From Limnohabitans sp. JirII-31 (GTDB lineage: Bacteria > Pseudomonadota > Gammaproteobacteria > Burkholderiales > Burkholderiaceae_C), in assembly GCF_002778315.1 (NCBI RefSeq), contig NZ_NESA01000001.1, forward strand, positions 124,001-188,000: DNA of 64,000 nt, in the 5' to 3' direction. Shown in pieces: positions 54,962 through 64,000 of this stretch. The notes below the pieces were generated by a model. That model made no database searches, had not been told where the DNA came from, and worked only from the letters and a program-made list of their open reading frames with translations. Both the position numbers and the translations under genes were made by a program. How positions within the stretch are numbered: position 1 is the stretch's first letter; each line of letters starts with the position of its first letter.

Positions 54962-55134
54962 AGGGTATTAACCGTTTCGAGGAGTGTCGCTGTGATTTTT
55001 GCAGCTTTTAGAATTCTCTTAGGCTGCTAAGTTCATATATTTTTGACATGCTAACAGCGATCCCTTGGCGCTTATGTTCCACAAATCAAGATGAAGGAAT
55101 ACATTTGGGGCCTGTGTCCGACAGGGAGCCAACG

Positions 55135-55764
55135 GTGAACACAAACCTCATGACGGAAGTGCCTTTGTTTCCTTTGGGAACGGTGTTGTTTCCAGGGGGG
55201 CGCTTGCCACTGCAAATTTTTGAAGTGCGTTACCTCGACATGGTGGGTCATTGTCATCGCGAGGGCTTGCCTTTTGGTGTGGTCTCGCTCATACACGGTG
55301 GCGAAGTTCGAAAAGCCGGAGACGAAGACCAAGCGCCCGAGATTTTTCAAAATATCGGCACCATGGCACGCATCAGTTCATGGGAGGCCCCGCAACCAGG
55401 CTTGATGCGCATTGATTGCGTGGGTGAGCAGCGCTTCAAAGTGCTCGGACAACGCAAGCTCAAACATGGGCTGTGGGTGGGCGATGTGGAACGCCTGGAG
55501 GCAGACCAAACCGTGACGGTGCCTGACGACTTGGTGCATGTGGCGCAACAACTTGAGCGCTTGATTCAACACCTCCAGGCGAGGGTGATCAGCCCCGAGC
55601 AATTTCCTATTGCCACACCTTTTGCTTTGGACGACTGTGGCTGGGTGGCCAACCGATGGAGCGAGTTGTTGCCCCTGCCTCCCGCCATGAAACAAAACCT
55701 GCTGGCGCTCGACAGCCCATTGATGCGGCTGGAGTTGATTGCTGATTTTTTAGAGCAAGTTTGA
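55135..55764 (+). CDS. LON-substrate-binding-domain protein (copy 1)
   Basis: A 209-residue stand-alone LON N-terminal domain protein: EVPLFPLGTVLFPGGRLPLQIFEVRYLDMV opens the domain, and FPIATPFALDDCGWVANRWSELLPLP closes it, followed by QNLLALDSPLMRLELIADFLE. No ATPase or protease domain follows, as in the short LonN family. The GTG at 55135 lies 6 nt after GGGAG, which decides the start. About 78% of positions match the second copy by eye. Confidence 0.9.
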   Translation: MNTNLMTEVPLFPLGTVLFPGGRLPLQIFEVRYLDMVGHCHREGLPFGVVSLIHGGEVRKAGDEDQAPEIFQNIGTMARISSWEAPQPGLMRIDCVGEQRFKVLGQRKLKHGLWVGDVERLEADQTVTVPDDLVHVAQQLERLIQHLQARVISPEQFPIATPFALDDCGWVANRWSELLPLPPAMKQNLLALDSPLMRLELIADFLEQV

Positions 55765-55927
55765 GGTTCGCGCTCAGTTATTACGCATAGAAGTTATCTC
55801 TATTTGGTCAGCCGCTTGCGTTTAAATAGTTTCAAGTCGGGCTCAATGTTTTCCGGGATGTGACGAAACCATAGATTGGGGACGCCTGTTGCGTGCTCCA
55901 GGTTTCTTGACAACGATGGAGTTCACA

Positions 55928-56557
55928 GTGGACACAAACCTGATGACTGAGATGCCGCTGTTTCCATTGGGCGCGGTGCTCTTTCCAGGTGGGCACTTGC
56001 CGCTGCAAATTTTTGAAGAGCGTTACCTTGACATGGTGGGGCGCTGCCTGCGCAAGGGTTTGCCCTTTGGTGTGGTGTCACTCACCGAGGGCGGTGACGT
56101 TCGCAAGCGTGGCGACGCAGGGCACGCCCCTGAAATTTTCAAAAGCATTGGCACCATGGCACGCATCACTGCCTGGCAATCGCCACACCCAGGCCTGATA
56201 CGCATTGACTGCGTGGGCGAACAGCGCTTTCAGGTGCTGGGGCAACGCAAGCTCAAACACGGCCTTTGGTTGGGTGATGTCGAGCGCCTGGCCGCAGATC
56301 AAGTGGTGGCCGTGCCCGACGACTTGGTGCATGTGGCGCAGCAACTGGAAAGTTTGATTCAGCGCATGCAGGCAGAGGCATCCAGCCCGCAGCCATTGCG
56401 CGCGACCACACCGTTTGCATTTGACGACTGCGGTTGGGTTGCCAACCGTTGGTGTGAGTTGCTGCCCCTGCCGCACGCCATGAAGCAAAACCTGCTGGCG
56501 CTTGACAGCCCTTTAGTGCGCTTGGAGTTGATTGCAGATTTTTTAGAGCGGGGTTGA
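55928..56557 (+). CDS. LON-substrate-binding-domain protein (copy 2)
   Basis: A 209-residue near-duplicate of the previous gene, same length. Starts MPLFPLGAVLFPGGHLPLQIFEERYLDMV and ends LLALDSPLVRLELIADFLERG. GTG 55928 follows GGAG by 6 nt, the same arrangement as copy 1. It lies 163 nt downstream of copy 1. Most differences cluster near residues 163-178, so that region is less constrained. Confidence 0.9.
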   Translation: MDTNLMTEMPLFPLGAVLFPGGHLPLQIFEERYLDMVGRCLRKGLPFGVVSLTEGGDVRKRGDAGHAPEIFKSIGTMARITAWQSPHPGLIRIDCVGEQRFQVLGQRKLKHGLWLGDVERLAADQVVAVPDDLVHVAQQLESLIQRMQAEASSPQPLRATTPFAFDDCGWVANRWCELLPLPHAMKQNLLALDSPLVRLELIADFLERG

Positions 56558-56580
56558 GTCGTTTGGGTGGCTTGTTAGGG

Positions 56581-56843
56581 TTAGGTCGCTTTTTTTCGCA
56601 TTCGTTTGGCTGCTTGGTACTGACGCTCGAAATCTGCCGCATCAAAACCATCATTACGCTTTAAGAGGCTGACATTTAACCAAGCGGTATCCTCATTCTG
56701 AAGTGCGGAGTATGTAGACTCTAAAGCAGTTAGTTATTGGGCTCCTTGTGCAGGCTCATTACTTTCACATCAATGTCACGACGCAACAGCTCTGCGAAAC
56801 AGCCATTGTGCTGCCCAGGCTTAACAACTTGTGCAAAGCGCAT
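56581..56843 (-). pseudogene. Frame-broken small ORF, unrecognised
   Basis: A minus-strand start at 56843 (ATG, 6 nt after GGGGAG) opens a 37-residue frame beginning MRFAQVVKPG and stopping at 56730. The adjoining frame 56581-56733 is open for 50 residues without a start, ending in RQYQAAKRMRKKAT. The two overlap by 4 nt in different frames. Joined, they would give an about 87-residue protein with a basic tail. A frameshifted small gene is plausible; I do not recognise the product. Confidence 0.35.
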
Positions 56844-57070
56844 GACCATCTCCCCTAGCAGTCTTCGAAAAAATTTCGTTTTATGCTCAGTGTTCGAAGT
56901 GGTCGTACTCGCACGCTGGTGCGCCGATCTGTGCGTTCAATGGTTAAGACGTCGATGAGGTTGTGGGTTTTGTATTCGCCATGTTTACATGATGTATCGG
57001 GCACAGTGCGAACTTCTAGCGGTCAAGTCCGATCAAGTTGGGTCGATCGTGCTTTTACCTGCAATCGGCT

Positions 57071-57100
57071 TTGAAAGCATTCTTCCGCCTTGGGTAAGAT
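57071..57100 (+). promoter_or_regulatory. Sigma-70-type promoter candidate for the helicase operon
   Basis: TTGAAA (57071-57076), an 18-nt spacer and TAAGAT (57095-57100) form a good -35/-10 pair. Transcription would begin about 57107, leaving a leader of about 57 nt before the ATG at 57164. Confidence 0.5.
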
Positions 57101-57163
57101 GCCCTGAAGGATCATCAAAAATTGATAGAGCCTGCGGTTACTGATAAGCAGGAAGGGGAGTTC

Positions 57164-60100
57164 ATGGATGTTTTTGACCTGAGGAAACAGGTAGTTGACG
57201 ACTACGCCAGCTTTGCGCGCTCATTCACGCAAATACGCGCCGCTGACTTGAAGGCTCAGATTGACGCCATCTACGCGCAAGACAAGTTCTGGCCTGAGCC
57301 ATTGCTCCAAATCACCCCGTACTACGAACCCGGTGGCAACGTAGATGCCCTGGCTGCCGATGGCTCCATAGACCCCACCACCGCGCAAATCTTCCGGATT
57401 CCCGCTGCTCCTGAGCAGCCGCTCAACCTCTACACCCATCAAGTCCAAGCGCTGACCGCCGCCAATCAGGGGCGCAGCTATGTTGTGACCACCGGTACGG
57501 GTTCCGGCAAATCGCTTTGCTTCTTCATACCGGTGATTGACGCCATCCTGCGCGCCAAGAAGACCGACAACACCAAGCGCACGCGCGCCATCATCGTGTA
57601 CCCGATGAACGCGCTGGCCAACAGCCAAATGGAGGAGCTGGACAAGTTCCTCAAACACCTGGCCCCCGCACAGCCCATTACGTTCGCGCGCTACACCGGC
57701 CAGGAGGGTGACGAAGCCCGCCGCGACGTGGCATCGAACCCGCCAGACATCTTGCTGACCAACTTCATGATGCTGGAATACCTGATGACGCGTCAGGATG
57801 AGACGGATCGAAAGGTCATCGGCCACTGCCAAGACTTGCAATTCCTGGTGCTCGACGAGCTGCACACCTACCGTGGCCGCCAGGGTGCCGACGTTGCGCT
57901 TTTAGTGCGCCGCATTCGCGCATTGCTGGCCCCTAGTGGATTGCAGTGCATCGGCACGTCCGCCACCATGGCTAGTGGCTCTGATGAAGATCGTCGTTCT
58001 GCCGTGGCCACGGTTGCCAGCAAGTTGTTTGGCACAGCTGTGCTTCCGTCGGATGTGATTGGCGAGACATTGATTCGGGCTACATCGCCCGAACTGCATG
58101 CAGGCACGGTGTTGGGGCCGTTGGTAGATGTGGTCAACACTGGCGTATCAGCCACCATCACGGACGCCGAGCTAGCCGTGCACCCGCTCGCCATCTGGAT
58201 TGAAACCCGCCTTGGCATCACCTGGGAAGGTGCCAAATGGGTGCGTGCAAGACCGCAAACACTGCAAACAGCCACCCAATGGCTGTCAGAAGACACTGGG
58301 CAGCCGATGGACAAATGCGCTGATCTGTTGCGCAACTTCCTGCTGATATCCTCGATGGCCGAAGAGGACCGCTTGGCCGGTCACAACAGTGGCAAACGCG
58401 GCTTCTTTGCCTTCAAGCTGCACCAGTTCATATCCGGTGCCGGTGCCGCCTACGCCACCCTTGACCCTGCGGGCACCCGCACCGTAACGGTCAACGCGCA
58501 GCAATACCTGCCGAGCGCTCCTGAAAAGCGGCTGTACCCGGTTCACTTCTGCCGCGACTGTGGGCAGGAGTACCACCCAGTGTTCTTGCAGCAAGATGGC
58601 GGCTATGTGGTGCTGCCGCGCGAAATCGACGACGTGCCACCCAAGTTGAACCGCGATGCCGAAGAGCAAGCGCCCGACCGACCACGCTACGGCTTTCTGA
58701 TGCCTGAGCCCCCCGATGGGTCACTGGATTTTTCCGGGAACGACGAGGACTATCCTGACTCTTGGTTGGAAGAGGACAAGCACGGCACTATCCGTCTAAA
58801 AGCGGATGCCCGCAAGAACCGGTCAGAACGCATTGCAATTGACCCCACGGGACGTGTTGGCGCTGGTGCCTATGCGTGGTTCATGCCAGGCAAGTTCCGC
58901 TTTTGCTTGGTTTGCAAGGCAGTCCATTCTGCCCAGGGCAAAGATAACAACCGCCTTGCCGCGCTGTCATCCGAAGGGCGTTCTTCGGCCACCACGCTGT
59001 TGACTCATTCGGTACTACGCTGGATGCACTCGCAGGAGTCCATACCTGCAAACCGGCGCAAGATGCTGGGGTTCAGCGATAACCGTCAGGATGCAGCCTT
59101 GCAGGCGGGGCACTTTAACGACTTCTTGTTCGTCAGCCTGTTCCGCTCGGCGTTTCTAGGTGCAGTACGCGCAGCGGGGTCGGAAGGGCTGTCAGCCGAC
59201 CGGCTAGGGCAGGCCGTCTTCAAGTCTTTGGGCTTCGACCGGCCCGGTGCTCAGGGACTGCGTGATGAATGGCTGATGGACCCCGAGTTGGAAGGTGCCA
59301 ACTTCATCAATGCGCAGAAGGCCATGCGCCAGGTGCTGGCCTATCGCGCGTGGTTTGACCAGCGCAAAGGCTGGCGCTACACCAACCCCAATCTGGAACA
59401 ACTCGCATTAGTGCGGGTGGAATACGTGGGTCTGGAAGACTTGTGTGCCAACGAGGCCCGCTTTGCCGATGCGCCGCAGTTGCTCAAAGGTGCCTCACCC
59501 CAGATTCGCATGAACGTCTACCGCATCATTCTGGATGCTATGCGCCAAGCGCTTGCGCTAGACCCGGAAGTGCTGGACCCGTCTGAGCAAGACACGCTGC
59601 GGGGGCGCTCTATCAACACGTTGCGTGCACCGTGGGGGTTTGGTCGTGAAGAGCAGATGCGTACCGCCCGCTACCTGATGTTGTCGCCGCCCGCCCGACG
59701 CGATAACTCGATGGCTGACGAAGACAAGCTCTTACGTGCCGGTTTCCTGTCTGGCATTGGCCGCGAATTGCGCAAGCCAGATCTGTGGGGTGGGCGCTCA
59801 GAGGCGCGCCAGCTCAGGCATGGTGACTACCAGATGTTGCTCAGCCACATGCTGCGAGCTGCGGCCAAAGCCGGTTTGGTGGCAGAGGTTCCCACCCCGT
59901 TTGGTACGTCCTTGGGATGGCACCTCAAAAATGCCTGCATTGAGTTCCACGTGGGCACCGGACGGCCAGCCCGTGGTGGCATGGATAACGCCTTCTACAA
60001 GGCGTTGTACGAGAACCTGGCCGCTGCCATCAATTCGGACTATCACTACTTCGGTTTCGAAGCCCGCGAGCACACCGCCCAGGTGGACAAAGACCGCCGC

Positions 60101-62479
60101 GAAGCGCGTGAAATGCGCTTCCGCTTTGGTGACGAAGACCAACAGCGCTTAGCCACCAACGCGCGGCAGCTTGCCGAACTGGGGGAGCGTGGCCGCTTCC
60201 TGCCGGTGCTGTTCTGTTCACCCACCATGGAGCTAGGCGTGGACATCTCCGCGCTGAACACGGTGTACCTGCGCAATATGCCGCCTACACCTGCCAACTA
60301 TGCCCAGCGCAGTGGCCGTGCCGGTCGCAGCGGCATGCCTGCGCTGGTGCTCACGTACTGCGCTGCACGCAGTCCGCATGACCAGTATTTCTTTGCTGAC
60401 CCACCCGCTATGGTCCATGGCGAAGTTCGTGCCCCTACGCTGGACTTGGGCAATGAAGAGCTGGTGCGCAGCCATTTGCAAGCGGTGTGGCTTGCTGCCA
60501 CCAATGCCCCCCTAAGTGCAGCAATCTCTGAAATCGTGGAGCCCAACGAACAGAAAGACTTGCCGCTGTACGAGACGGTCGTCACCGCGTTGTCGGATCC
60601 TGCAACGCCGCCCATTGCTACGCAACGCATCAAACAGGTGTTGGCATTGCTGACCGATGACCTCACACCAGAGGATGCACCTTGGTTTCAGGGCATTGAT
60701 GCACTCACTGCCGACATCGTGGACAAAGCTGTCATCCGCTTTGACGATGCCTTCGACAGGTGGCGTGAACTGTTCCGCAGCGCAGCCCGCCAGCGGGACC
60801 AGTCTCGCCGCACCATGGATACGCACAACCTCCCGCAGCGCGAGCGCGATTCAGCGCGGGTGTTGCACGCTCAGGCGATTGACCAGCTGAACCTGTTGCA
60901 GCGTGGCTCCGAAAGCCTGTCCAGTGACTTCTACACTTACCGCTATCTAGCTACCGAGGCGTTCCTGCCTGGCTACAACTTCCCACGCCTGCCGTTGACG
61001 GCCTTTATTCCTGGCAGTGGTGAGCGGGGTACCAAGGGTGCCTATTTGCAGCGGCCCCGGTTCCTGGCGTTGTCCGAATTCGGCCCTCGTAGCTTGGTCT
61101 ATCACGAAGGCCGCGCCTACCGCGTCACTGCGGCCCAGCTCTCCACCCGTGGCGAAGGTGCAGTGCCTGGCGGCTTACTGAACACCGATACCGCTGTGAT
61201 CTGCCGCAGTTGCGGTGGTGCCCATTTCCGTTCAGACCCAGCAGACAAAGGTCGCAGCCACTGCCGCGCCTGTGGTGCTTTGCTGATGGACAACAGCGAC
61301 ATGGTGCTCAACCTGTACCGCATCGAAAACGTCCGCACTTCGCCCGCCGAGCGCATCACCGTCAATGACGAAGAGCGCCAACGCCAAGGGTTTGACCTGC
61401 AAACCATCTTCCGGTGGGCTCGCCGCGAGGGTGGTCAGCAAGATGTGCGCGTGGTGCGGGCCCAAGATGCCGAAGGCTCTGTGGCTACGCTTCGCTACGG
61501 TCCGGGTGCTGAAATCAGCCGTTTGAACAAGGGCCTGCGCCGTCGTGCCGACCCGGCACAGCATGGCTTTATGGTCAATCCACTCAATGGCTCATGGGCC
61601 AAGATGGACGAGGATGACGGTCGCGAGCCCGACCCCACCGTGACACCCAATCAGTCCATCGTTCCCTGGGTGATGGACCGCAAAAACGCGCTGCTGTTTC
61701 AACTTGCCGAGGAGGGCGCTTCCGAGGTCACCATAGCCACTCTGCAATACGCCATCAAGCGCGGTGTGGAGTCTGTCTACCAGTTGGAAGAGTCCGAGTT
61801 GCTGGCTGAGCCCTTGCCAGACCGCAAGACGCGCAAGGGTGTGCTGCTATACGAGGCGACCGAGGGTGGCGCAGGGGTGTTGACCCGTCTGGTTCATGAC
61901 GAAAACGCGCTTGCCAACGTGGCTCGCGCTGCATTGAAGGTAATGCACTTCGACATACCACCTGTTGGACAACCACTTCCGGCGCTGGACGATTTGCATG
62001 ATGTGGCGGGCACCCAATGTGTTGCGGGCTGCTACCGCTGCGTGCTGTCCTATTACAACCAGCCAGACCACCCCGTGATTGACCGCCGTGACGCTGCGGC
62101 CCGTGCTTTGTTGCTTAGGCTGGCAGCGGTGCGGACCCATTTGATGCCTGCATCCGATGAGCCTGTAAGCGCCACGGATGCAGATGTCGCACCTGCGGAT
62201 GTGAGCAGCGGGACAGCCGCGTCAGTTGCCGCAAGCGTACCGAGCCAAGGCGGGTTCAGCGCCGCAACATATGGCCTGCCAGAACCTACTGCCGTGGGCA
62301 AGCCCATTGACAATACCGATGTGTTGGCACTGTGGCGTGGCCAGCGTGTTGCCTTGGTGGGTCACAACGTTGATCCCGCCCCGTTGCGTGACCGAGGTCT
62401 TGAAGTATTCGTATGGCCTGCGGACGACGCGCAGGCCCAAGCCGCTGTGGCTGCACAGTTGGCTCAAAAACTATCCTAA
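57164..62479 (+). CDS. Large DEAD-type helicase with DUF1998 domain
   Basis: A 1771-residue superfamily 2 helicase. The first RecA-like domain has Walker A TGTGSGKS at 110-117, DELH at 231-234 and SAT at 266-268. The second is far away: QRSGRAGRSG at 1048-1057. The about 780-residue stretch between holds two CxxC pairs (C463/C466, C581/C584). C1347/C1350 with C1367/C1370 form a zinc-ribbon-like block. C1619/C1623/C1626 in the DUF1998-type C-terminal cluster complete it. This plan matches COG1205 helicases of phage defence, such as Druantia DruE and a DISARM DrmA-DrmB-like fusion. ATG 57164 follows GGAAGGGGAG; the SNF2 gene follows by 12 nt. Confidence 0.88.
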   Translation: MDVFDLRKQVVDDYASFARSFTQIRAADLKAQIDAIYAQDKFWPEPLLQITPYYEPGGNVDALAADGSIDPTTAQIFRIPAAPEQPLNLYTHQVQALTAANQGRSYVVTTGTGSGKSLCFFIPVIDAILRAKKTDNTKRTRAIIVYPMNALANSQMEELDKFLKHLAPAQPITFARYTGQEGDEARRDVASNPPDILLTNFMMLEYLMTRQDETDRKVIGHCQDLQFLVLDELHTYRGRQGADVALLVRRIRALLAPSGLQCIGTSATMASGSDEDRRSAVATVASKLFGTAVLPSDVIGETLIRATSPELHAGTVLGPLVDVVNTGVSATITDAELAVHPLAIWIETRLGITWEGAKWVRARPQTLQTATQWLSEDTGQPMDKCADLLRNFLLISSMAEEDRLAGHNSGKRGFFAFKLHQFISGAGAAYATLDPAGTRTVTVNAQQYLPSAPEKRLYPVHFCRDCGQEYHPVFLQQDGGYVVLPREIDDVPPKLNRDAEEQAPDRPRYGFLMPEPPDGSLDFSGNDEDYPDSWLEEDKHGTIRLKADARKNRSERIAIDPTGRVGAGAYAWFMPGKFRFCLVCKAVHSAQGKDNNRLAALSSEGRSSATTLLTHSVLRWMHSQESIPANRRKMLGFSDNRQDAALQAGHFNDFLFVSLFRSAFLGAVRAAGSEGLSADRLGQAVFKSLGFDRPGAQGLRDEWLMDPELEGANFINAQKAMRQVLAYRAWFDQRKGWRYTNPNLEQLALVRVEYVGLEDLCANEARFADAPQLLKGASPQIRMNVYRIILDAMRQALALDPEVLDPSEQDTLRGRSINTLRAPWGFGREEQMRTARYLMLSPPARRDNSMADEDKLLRAGFLSGIGRELRKPDLWGGRSEARQLRHGDYQMLLSHMLRAAAKAGLVAEVPTPFGTSLGWHLKNACIEFHVGTGRPARGGMDNAFYKALYENLAAAINSDYHYFGFEAREHTAQVDKDRREAREMRFRFGDEDQQRLATNARQLAELGERGRFLPVLFCSPTMELGVDISALNTVYLRNMPPTPANYAQRSGRAGRSGMPALVLTYCAARSPHDQYFFADPPAMVHGEVRAPTLDLGNEELVRSHLQAVWLAATNAPLSAAISEIVEPNEQKDLPLYETVVTALSDPATPPIATQRIKQVLALLTDDLTPEDAPWFQGIDALTADIVDKAVIRFDDAFDRWRELFRSAARQRDQSRRTMDTHNLPQRERDSARVLHAQAIDQLNLLQRGSESLSSDFYTYRYLATEAFLPGYNFPRLPLTAFIPGSGERGTKGAYLQRPRFLALSEFGPRSLVYHEGRAYRVTAAQLSTRGEGAVPGGLLNTDTAVICRSCGGAHFRSDPADKGRSHCRACGALLMDNSDMVLNLYRIENVRTSPAERITVNDEERQRQGFDLQTIFRWARREGGQQDVRVVRAQDAEGSVATLRYGPGAEISRLNKGLRRRADPAQHGFMVNPLNGSWAKMDEDDGREPDPTVTPNQSIVPWVMDRKNALLFQLAEEGASEVTIATLQYAIKRGVESVYQLEESELLAEPLPDRKTRKGVLLYEATEGGAGVLTRLVHDENALANVARAALKVMHFDIPPVGQPLPALDDLHDVAGTQCVAGCYRCVLSYYNQPDHPVIDRRDAAARALLLRLAAVRTHLMPASDEPVSATDADVAPADVSSGTAASVAASVPSQGGFSAATYGLPEPTAVGKPIDNTDVLALWRGQRVALVGHNVDPAPLRDRGLEVFVWPADDAQAQAAVAAQLAQKLS

Positions 62480-62491
62480 GGATTCGTATCA

Positions 62492-64000
62492 ATGAGTGCT
62501 GTGATGTCTGATCCTTTGGGCTCGCACTTCCCCCCTGGGGCCTTGGTGCGCGCCCGTGGCCGTGAATGGATAGTGCTGCCTGGCAGCAGTCCCGACCGGC
62601 TGCGCTTGCGCCCCCTATCTGGCAGTGAAGCGGATGTGGCTGTTGTCTCCCCTCGATTGGAAGCTGTCCACGACCCCGTGGTGGCTGCCAACTTCCCGCC
62701 ACCATCGGTTGCGCAGGCTGCAAGCCATGAAGATGCATTGTTGCTGCGTGATGCCCTGCTAATGTCCTTGCGCCGGGGTGCTGGCCCCTTCCGTAGCTTT
62801 GGGCACCTGGCATTCCAGCCGCGCGCCTACCAGTTGGTGCCCCTTCTGATGGCGCTCAAACAGGAAGTGGTCCGCCTTCTGATTGCTGATGACGTGGGTA
62901 TCGGCAAAACCATCGAAGCAGGCATGATTGCCCGCGAGCTGATGGACCGTGGCGAGATAAAGCGGTTTGCGGTGCTCTGCCCACCCCATTTGGTAGAGCA
63001 GTGGGTGCAAGAGCTGGACGAGCGGTTTCACATCAAGGCGGTGGCCGTCACGGCTGCCAGCGCAGCCCGCTTGGAACGTGGTTTACCAGTCACTGACAAC
63101 ATATTCACCGTGCACCCGCACACCGTGGTGAGTCTGGACTTCATCAAGAGTGACCGCCGACGTGGCGACTTCGCCACCCGTTGCCCCGAATTGGTGATCG
63201 TGGATGAAGCCCACACCTGCGCAGGTAATGGCGCTGGCCGCCATCAACGTTACGACTTGCTGCGACTACTGGCTGCGGATGCCGAGAGACACATGCTGTT
63301 TCTCACGGCCACCCCGCATTCCGGCGATGAGGCCAGTTTCAACAACCTGCTAGGCCTGTTGCACCCAGACTTTTTGCAGCTTGCCACCCTGGCTGGCACT
63401 GCCCGTGACGCATTGCGCGCCCGCCTTGCGTTGCACTTTGTTCAACGCCGACGGCCCGACATTGCAGAGTGGAACGACGAGGGTGTGTTCCCACGCCGCG
63501 AAACCTCAGACTTGCCCTATTCTCTGGACGGTGCATGGGCGCATTTTTTCGACTCCGTGTTGGACTATTGCTCCGAGGTAGTGGAGCGTGCGGGCACCGA
63601 CCAGCGCCGCCAGCGCCTCAATTTCTGGGGCACATTGGCACTAATGCGCAGTGCTGCCAGCAGCCCAGCGGCGGCATTGCAGTCTCTGCGTACGCGCATG
63701 TCCAACCAGATCACCGATGCTGACGAAGAGGCTTTGCGCGACCGCGTGTTTGACGGTGCAGAAGACGCCATGCCGGATGACGATGCCGAGCTACCCGCAG
63801 ACAACGCCGAGCCCGCGCTGGCAGACCTGATTACCCAAGCCCAGCGCCTGGCTGCTGACGGCGGCGACCCCAAGTTGGTGGCCCTGCGCAATCACCTTGA
63901 AAAAGACTTGCTCAAACCCGGCTTTGCACCTGTGGTTTTCTGCCGCTACATTGCCACCGCGCACTACCTGTACGAACACCTCAAAAACCGTTACCCCGGT
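62492..64000 (+). CDS. SNF2-type helicase, 5' part (runs off the window)
   Basis: A 503-residue N-terminal part of an SNF2/DrmD-type DNA helicase without a stop before 64000. The ATP site DDVGIGKT is at 133-140, DEAH at 238-241, and a TATP motif near residue 272. The start of the second helicase domain can be seen at the end (PVVFCRYIATAHYLYEHLKNRY). ATG 62492 follows TAAGGA, which overlaps the stop of the previous gene. DrmD-like proteins have about 1000 residues or more, so more than half may be missing. It is co-transcribed with the DUF1998 helicase. Confidence 0.87.
   Translation, partial: MSAVMSDPLGSHFPPGALVRARGREWIVLPGSSPDRLRLRPLSGSEADVAVVSPRLEAVHDPVVAANFPPPSVAQAASHEDALLLRDALLMSLRRGAGPFRSFGHLAFQPRAYQLVPLLMALKQEVVRLLIADDVGIGKTIEAGMIARELMDRGEIKRFAVLCPPHLVEQWVQELDERFHIKAVAVTAASAARLERGLPVTDNIFTVHPHTVVSLDFIKSDRRRGDFATRCPELVIVDEAHTCAGNGAGRHQRYDLLRLLAADAERHMLFLTATPHSGDEASFNNLLGLLHPDFLQLATLAGTARDALRARLALHFVQRRRPDIAEWNDEGVFPRRETSDLPYSLDGAWAHFFDSVLDYCSEVVERAGTDQRRQRLNFWGTLALMRSAASSPAAALQSLRTRMSNQITDADEEALRDRVFDGAEDAMPDDDAELPADNAEPALADLITQAQRLAADGGDPKLVALRNHLEKDLLKPGFAPVVFCRYIATAHYLYEHLKNRYPG

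Follow-up and report, generated by a model that had tools for sequence, protein, structure and literature searches.

The window analysed here is a stretch of 64,000 nucleotides from Limnohabitans sp. JirII-31 (contig NZ_NESA01000001.1; G000:C1:124001-188000), and its last part holds the beginning of an operon of four genes, all on the + strand, which encode in this order a large YprA/MrfA-family helicase, an SNF2-type helicase, a methyltransferase and a stand-alone HNH endonuclease (Table 1). The operon runs past the end of the window and the rest of it was read in the following stretch, L002, whose positions are converted to window equivalents by adding 53999. An earlier note, made from the window alone, had described a 1771-residue helicase with DUF1998 and cysteine clusters, followed 12 nucleotides later by an SNF2/DrmD-like helicase, and had proposed them as a candidate defence locus, which is very probably right. 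The first protein contains CxxC clusters and the motifs GTGSGKS, DELH and QRSGRAGR, and in Pfam it matches Helicase_C (6e-09) besides the DEAD and MZB (former DUF1998) domains; the second, with the motifs DDVGIGKT and DEAH, matches SNF2-rel_dom (5e-13) and Helicase_C (1e-16). Methylase, nuclease or phospholipase D (PLD) genes had been named as possible beyond position 64000, and a methyltransferase and a nuclease are indeed found there, but no PLD gene. The methyltransferase shows the motifs DPACGSG and NPPW, an Eco57I match in Pfam and, among the best 25 of 46 matches in PADLOC, DrmMI (8e-52) and type IIG models. The HNH protein shows HNH_2 in Pfam and the motifs ASHAKPW and FNGLLL, and its start shares 4 nucleotides with the stop of the methyltransferase gene.

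Table 1. Parts of the operon and nearby features in window coordinates, with L002 coordinates for those beyond the end of the window.
Feature	Position	Strand	Basis
YprA/MrfA-family helicase (ArmC-like), 1771 aa	57164..62479	+	Open reading frame (ORF) from ATG at 57164, profiles, relatives
DEAD (RecA1) domain of large helicase	57434..57976	+	Pfam PF00270 9e-29, residues 91-271; GTGSGKS, DELH
MZB (DUF1998) zinc-binding domain	61742..62044	+	Pfam PF09369 1.5e-08, residues 1527-1627
Degenerate Vsr-type nuclease domain	62237..62476	+	Catalytic motif lost; predicted fold kept
SNF2/RapA/BrxHII-like helicase, 951 aa	62492..64000, on to window-equivalent 65347	+	ORF, profiles
Eco57I/PglX-like methyltransferase, 1319 aa	L002:11352-15311 = window-equivalent 65351-69310	+	ORF, profiles, motifs
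HNH endonuclease, 266 aa	L002:15308-16108 = window-equivalent 69307-70107	+	ORF, profiles, predicted structure
Orphan ORF, 213 aa, membership doubtful	L002:16131-16772 = window-equivalent 70130-70771	+	ORF
Promoter-like site TTGAAA-18-TAAGAT	57071..57100	+	No better than chance

Judged by gene content and profiles, the gene set and order are like those of ARMADA Type I and are not those of DISARM or Druantia. In the available portions of the 2025 preprint that named ARMADA (Bell et al., PMC12458937), Type I has the order YprA-like, BrxHII-like and PglX-like, with a predicted active Vsr nuclease at the C-terminus of YprA and with BrxA-like, beta-barrel, MarR-like and coiled-coil helix-turn-helix parts in the same protein, and it is abundant in Pseudomonadota, also the phylum of this locus. 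The same order is found here, a YprA-like helicase with fused DUF1998 being followed by a BrxHII/RapA-like helicase and a PglX-like methyltransferase, and in a helicase tree of 86 rows, with references labelled by gene context, the window protein groups with loci of the ARMADA I gene order, DrmA is a distant outgroup, and Type II and DruE lie on long branches among deep Type I. The earlier suggestion of a hybrid or distinct subtype thus stands in so far as the locus is neither DISARM nor Druantia, but its gene set matches ARMADA Type I, so that it is no unknown hybrid. Unlike in Type I, the fused Vsr domain is degenerate and the fourth gene encodes a stand-alone HNH endonuclease, and since the active Vsr nuclease is absent, its motif being lost while the predicted fold is kept, the locus is filed as a variant branch and not as canonical ARMADA I. 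ARMADA Type II shares the three core protein families with this locus but has the order SNF2, methyltransferase, YprA, a RelE/GajB-like helicase as fourth gene, and a YprA of 2113 amino acids in the E. coli plasmid locus examined against 1771 here.

The earlier note had compared the large protein with DruE or a fused DrmA-DrmB, which fits, as helicase and DUF1998 are joined in one protein and DruE1 (8e-91) is its best match in PADLOC, where several DruE models, DpdJ and DrmA are among the best 25 of 35. Together with the DrmD (5e-83) match of the SNF2 protein (best 25 of 41) and the DrmMI-like methyltransferase, two features shared with DISARM Class 1, this could suggest that the locus is a subtype of DISARM or Druantia. 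That is very improbable, and membership of both was rejected on gene content and profile scores. The DruE1 match is fragmentary, falling in separate pieces, no DruA-D or DruH companion is present among the matches listed (the partners being SNF2, methyltransferase and HNH), and no PLD domain is found by Pfam in the helicase or elsewhere in the five proteins of the locus. DISARM Class 1 has separate DrmA and DrmB (DUF1998) genes and the PLD nuclease DrmC, but here there is one fused protein and an HNH nuclease gene, so that of the methylase and PLD genes named beforehand as the sign of a DISARM-type system only the first follows. With the NCBIfam models the SNF2 protein reaches 307 bits for DISARM_DrmD and the helicase just 15.5 bits for DISARM_DrmA, both under the cut-offs of 610 and 950, and PLD_Helicase and phospholipD_antiphage (PADLOC/NCBIfam) match the helicase part of the SNF2 protein only. 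The Druantia and Dpd profiles that had been proposed as a check gave a mixed outcome, with DruE models matching the helicase and a DpdE-labelled model the SNF2 protein, but without listed Druantia companions, and profile searches with the operon proteins found no Dpd 7-deazapurine synthesis or insertion genes among the four. The DpdE-labelled PADLOC model, PDLC02853, covers the whole length of the ARMADA SNF2 protein (4.5e-191) and fits it far better than the DrmD models do, and the label of this model may mislead annotation.

Relatives were collected from three sources. Among 399 genomes of the same order 17, the window's own included, have the helicase at E 1e-100 or better; on plasmids 64 records reach 1e-100; and a genome scan using a 16-sequence SNF2 alignment as query supplied the best 80 of 528 confirmed places. 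For this reason the sample leans towards near relatives. The patchy occurrence in the order, the helicase being absent from all 11 further family members listed, the carriage on plasmids, and the methyltransferase and HNH partners all argue against the helicases being housekeeping DNA repair enzymes with no part in defence, an idea suggested by the MZB domain, which is also that of MrfA, and to be given next to no weight.

From 97 loci (L002, 16 stretches from the order and 80 scan loci), 81 had a long enough helicase ORF adjoining the SNF2 gene, and 77 remained when three duplicates and the frame-broken row L059 were left out; the true tail of L059 is also without the Vsr motif. The motif was scored as DF-x-Y ... 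DG-x-x-H, a pattern that would miss the DFAY form seen in Roseomonas, of which there is no case in the alignment of the 81 loci. It is intact in 21 loci and lost in 56, and in the alignment the window protein has other residues or gaps in place of both aspartates and the histidine. Outside the branch of the window it is kept, as read by eye, in Nocardioides, Deinococcus, Nostoc, Haloquadratum and Caballeronia, and the tail of one motif-intact relative (L025) matches DUF559 in Pfam (2e-05). An AlphaFold2 model of the last 165 residues of the window helicase, made with a 52-sequence alignment, has a mean predicted local distance difference test (pLDDT) of 77, rising to 93-96 from tail residue 91. 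In Foldseek its best match is I-Bth0305I (probability 0.93, E 0.065), with no match at E 0.001, and in VIA-align the top is formed by the I-Bth0305I catalytic domain (Z 7.7), ngo0050 (7.4), PvuRts1I (5.6) and AbaSI (5.3). The first five rows are all endonucleases, which we take to be of the Vsr-like kind, and a Vsr-like fold is therefore credible even though each Z alone is borderline. The C-terminal Vsr domain has thus lost its catalytic residues while, according to the model, keeping its fold; this, like the stand-alone HNH gene, was beyond what the earlier note could see.

The predicted structure of the HNH protein, made with a 40-sequence alignment, has a mean pLDDT of 92. Residues 122-264 match VcaM4I (Z 17.6) and residues 143-266 match TagI (Z 10.7), two modification-dependent restriction enzymes in which, as here, the HNH part is preceded by a helix and a small N-terminal domain. 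The residues H224, N241, D250 and D254 named for VcaM4I in the available part of PMC7897488 have their counterparts, with the same spacing, in H176, N193, D202 and D206, which are invariant in 40/40 aligned copies, a chosen subset of the HNH ORFs found; the VcaM4I catalytic set, one mark of the EVE-HNH and SRA-HNH enzymes, is thus present. The N-terminal residues, about 11-112, match ygaC (Z 7.8) and the DNA-binding domain of T4 MotA (6.8 and 6.7), all below 8. Unlike in VcaM4I and TagI, EVE and SRA folds are not among the N-terminal matches listed, nor are sulfur-binding folds, a list that excludes none of them, and the HNH protein is the operon partner of helicases and a methyltransferase. 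In the accessible text of PMC7145662 the 5-methylcytosine-reading domain of EcoKMcrA is described as weakly similar to MotA, and a DNA-reading role of the HNH N-terminal domain is on this ground a lead and not a result.

Across the relatives, the HNH gene tends to accompany the loss of the Vsr motif. Where at least 5 kb of downstream sequence is present, HNH lies within 5 kb in 29/32 motif-lost loci, with two more at 5.4-5.5 kb, against 4/9 motif-intact loci (Fisher 0.007). Adding the short loci with HNH gives 43/46 against 6/11, a count that favours HNH since short loci were kept if it was present and dropped if it was absent. HNH is located at most 200 nucleotides from the methyltransferase in 12/50 motif-lost and 0/19 motif-intact loci. 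The HNH and helicase proteins co-diverge, their distances correlating with r 0.80 over 45 loci (0/2000 permutations as high), which does not separate inheritance of the operon from descent of the hosts. Among the 399 genomes of the order an HNH match at 1e-20 is found in 28, and these comprise 14 of the 17 helicase genomes as against 14 of the 382 others (Fisher 1e-15). In two of the former (G286 and G288) it is on another contig, the copy in G288 adjoining a methyltransferase fragment at the contig end, and in G223 HNH is in two pieces; of the 14 genomes without the helicase, by eye, only G277 and G096, both on short contigs, have the same N-terminal domain and the rest share no more than the HNH part.

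On plasmids HNH is matched at 1e-15 in 56 records, and 16 of these matches start at residue 58 or earlier, 14 of them in records that are also in the helicase lists, while the remaining two belong to a TIR-associated gene and to an SMC-HNH pair beside IS21-like genes. Conversely, 16 of the 20 best plasmid helicase records are also in the HNH list. Motif-lost plasmid loci carry HNH in 6 of 7 cases (Hydrogenimonas, Mesorhizobium AR02, A. caldus, Acinetobacter soli, Sphingomonas MM-1 and Agrobacterium), Kozakia being the one without it, and the Roseomonas plasmid, which is outside the HNH list, has an intact Vsr. Another plasmid outside that list, Mesorhizobium loti p_2 (L158), encodes an ARMADA I-type helicase that ends after the zinc-binding region at 1662 amino acids; neither SNF2 nor methyltransferase is matched in the 35 kb examined, and the locus looks like an operon remnant.

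A more careful tree of 34 rows, hand-picked from the 86 and with the tail columns left out, needs the Vsr state to change twice, and two changes are also forced by its starred branches. The deep loci (Nocardioides, Deinococcus and L035) and an outer grade (L070, L075, L076, L082, L101 and L117) are motif-intact, and those of the outer grade with 5 kb downstream (L075, L076 and L117) have no HNH there. One supported node (100/98) unites Hydrogenimonas with two clades, one of them motif-intact with several HNH-carrying members, the other large, motif-lost and including the window. In Hydrogenimonas, the second lineage of motif loss, methyltransferase and HNH follow downstream on the other side of the record start, so that both losses are in HNH-carrying lineages, a few members of which are without HNH. 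As the outer grade is motif-intact and, in those three loci, without HNH, and the losses are inside the HNH-bearing node, the gain of HNH probably preceded the two losses of the Vsr motif.

We consider it probable that the four genes form an operon like ARMADA Type I which defends against phages by restricting DNA and in which the nuclease step has moved, and, in the same degree, that it stands for a branch of ARMADA I in which the stand-alone HNH protein took over cutting. The methyltransferase would mark host DNA, and the SNF2/RapA-like translocase and the YprA-like helicase would engage foreign DNA as it enters or replicates, and remodel it. The Vsr-type domain that ends the helicase would not cut and may serve as a scaffold, and the separate HNH protein would cut the DNA, recruited via a complex and/or via its N-terminal DNA-binding-like domain. 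For ARMADA Type II (E. coli NCTC 12900 and ATCC 8739) anti-phage, non-abortive defence is reported in the available portions of PMC12458937, with NPPW in the methyltransferase and the ArmA and ArmC Walker motifs being required in E. coli; the non-abortive character is shown there for Type II only, and by analogy with it the present locus should be anti-phage and might be non-abortive as well.

Several observations weigh against this interpretation. The Z of 7-8 for the tail model is borderline. HNH is not exclusive to ARMADA-type operons on plasmids, as on one of them its neighbour is a TIR gene, without ARMADA, and the plasmid of Paracoccus versutus (L155:14008-16762) has an SMC-like gene and HNH without helicases and, by eye, directly beside IS21-like genes, a pair that is perhaps a truncated ARMADA locus. 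Four of the 20 best plasmid helicase records (Kozakia, Roseomonas and two Mesorhizobium) are outside the HNH list, and in Kozakia the motif is lost and IS21 is located behind the methyltransferase, with no HNH match; in L106 the motif is also lost and no HNH is present in 5.3 kb. Six loci carry both HNH and an intact Vsr. All belong to the sister clade within the node at which HNH appears, and a comparison limited to that node shows less contrast than the overall counts suggest. A strict rule of either Vsr or HNH was rejected on account of these six. Among the 66 relatives whose sequence extends 2.5 kb downstream, 27 have an SMC-like gene there, and in the genome of the window such a gene was not found at 0.001 in a search run without a positive control. 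Finally, the association of Vsr loss with HNH is not statistically independent of descent because only two losses are counted. A test with independent pairs yielded one pair only and no significance, with HNH labels given by hand and some rows scored as lacking HNH having less than 5 kb downstream, and the association is thus suggestive, not proven.

The SMC-like ATPase, of about 650 amino acids, is found downstream of the methyltransferase and often before HNH (L025, L027, L029-L031, L045, L095 and others), and DUF262 genes are present near HNH in L026, L031, L032, L053, L060, L084 and L098, with GmrSD_N in L031.

The occurrence of HNH outside ARMADA and alongside an intact Vsr, its closeness to the modification-dependent VcaM4I and TagI, and the ygaC- and MotA-like N-terminal domain, the latter recalling EcoKMcrA, would also be expected if HNH were a separate modification-dependent (Type IV) enzyme that is carried with ARMADA, attacks modified phage DNA escaping the methyltransferase-based step of self and non-self, and does not serve the helicases. 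This seems unlikely, if by no means far-fetched, and the overlap of the HNH gene with the methyltransferase gene, the co-divergence with the helicase, and the presence of HNH in nearly all the motif-lost loci (29/32) speak against it. Alternatively, no DNA might be cut, with helicase action alone blocking replication and the dead Vsr domain and HNH as accessories, which would accord with a 2026 review that, in the portion available, lists the restriction mode of ARMADA as unknown. We regard this as improbable, given the invariant catalytic residues of the 40 aligned HNH copies and the retention of HNH in the same 29 of 32 loci.

Within the interpretation that HNH has taken over the cutting, a more specific and rather speculative version is that a large ARMADA branch switched from a helicase-fused to a trans-acting HNH nuclease. 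The MotA/NEco-like N-terminal domain of the latter would read DNA and perhaps modified bases in it, the helicases would gate or deliver HNH, and HNH would have been gained first, which freed Vsr to decay into a scaffold. If so, the operon would unite a methyltransferase that marks self with a cutter resembling Type IV enzymes. Loci of this branch are found in Pseudomonadota, Myxococcota, Verrucomicrobiota, Spirochaetota and Bacillota, several of them in metagenome bins, and in Campylobacterota.

The published architecture points to the Vsr domain of the helicase, but the motif is lost in most of the relatives (56/77), which were chosen for likeness to this locus, and in sampled relatives with a lost motif another nuclease is usually conserved nearby, so annotation by the helicase profile alone can name the wrong nuclease. 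The compact operon offers a direct genetic test of which of the four proteins is the effector. In the main text of PMC12458937 HNH occurs once, in a reference title, although its supplements may mention it, and no ARMADA with HNH was seen in the available portions of PMC13192584 and PMC12904381; no published description of an HNH-bearing ARMADA variant was found in a search that covered neither supplements nor most subscription papers.

The GC content falls to 0.47-0.49 upstream of the operon (56500-57249), the genes having about 0.60, which bears out the low-GC boundary of the earlier note. The promoter placed there was rejected, since the site at 57071 is not above chance (1 found, 0.8 expected in shuffles). 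Further upstream two tandem paralogues (55048-55764 and 55889-56557) show 78% protein identity and are presumably LON-domain-like, as judged by eye. The 213-residue ORF behind the HNH gene was rejected as a conserved fifth component, as only the own genome among the 399 carries it; it contains a stretch RHALAH that we take to be reminiscent of HEPN. It is followed on the - strand (L002:16809-17524) by pieces resembling a broken Fic-family gene, among them a 46-residue ORF with a weak match to a SoFic-like C-terminal domain (6e-04, below the cut-off). No empty site is shown by the genomes in which the flanking genes are on one contig (G171, G408 and G416), where they lie 22-31 kb apart.

Among the relatives, the conjugative plasmid pNOCA01 of Nocardioides sp. 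JS614 (L118) carries DISARM drmA-drmB, an ARMADA I-type cassette and McrBC-type genes next to each other, and an 85-kb IncY plasmid of E. coli YZ3-11 (L123 and L128) has one array that combines Zorya II genes with a Druantia III-like pair and an ARMADA II-like cassette.

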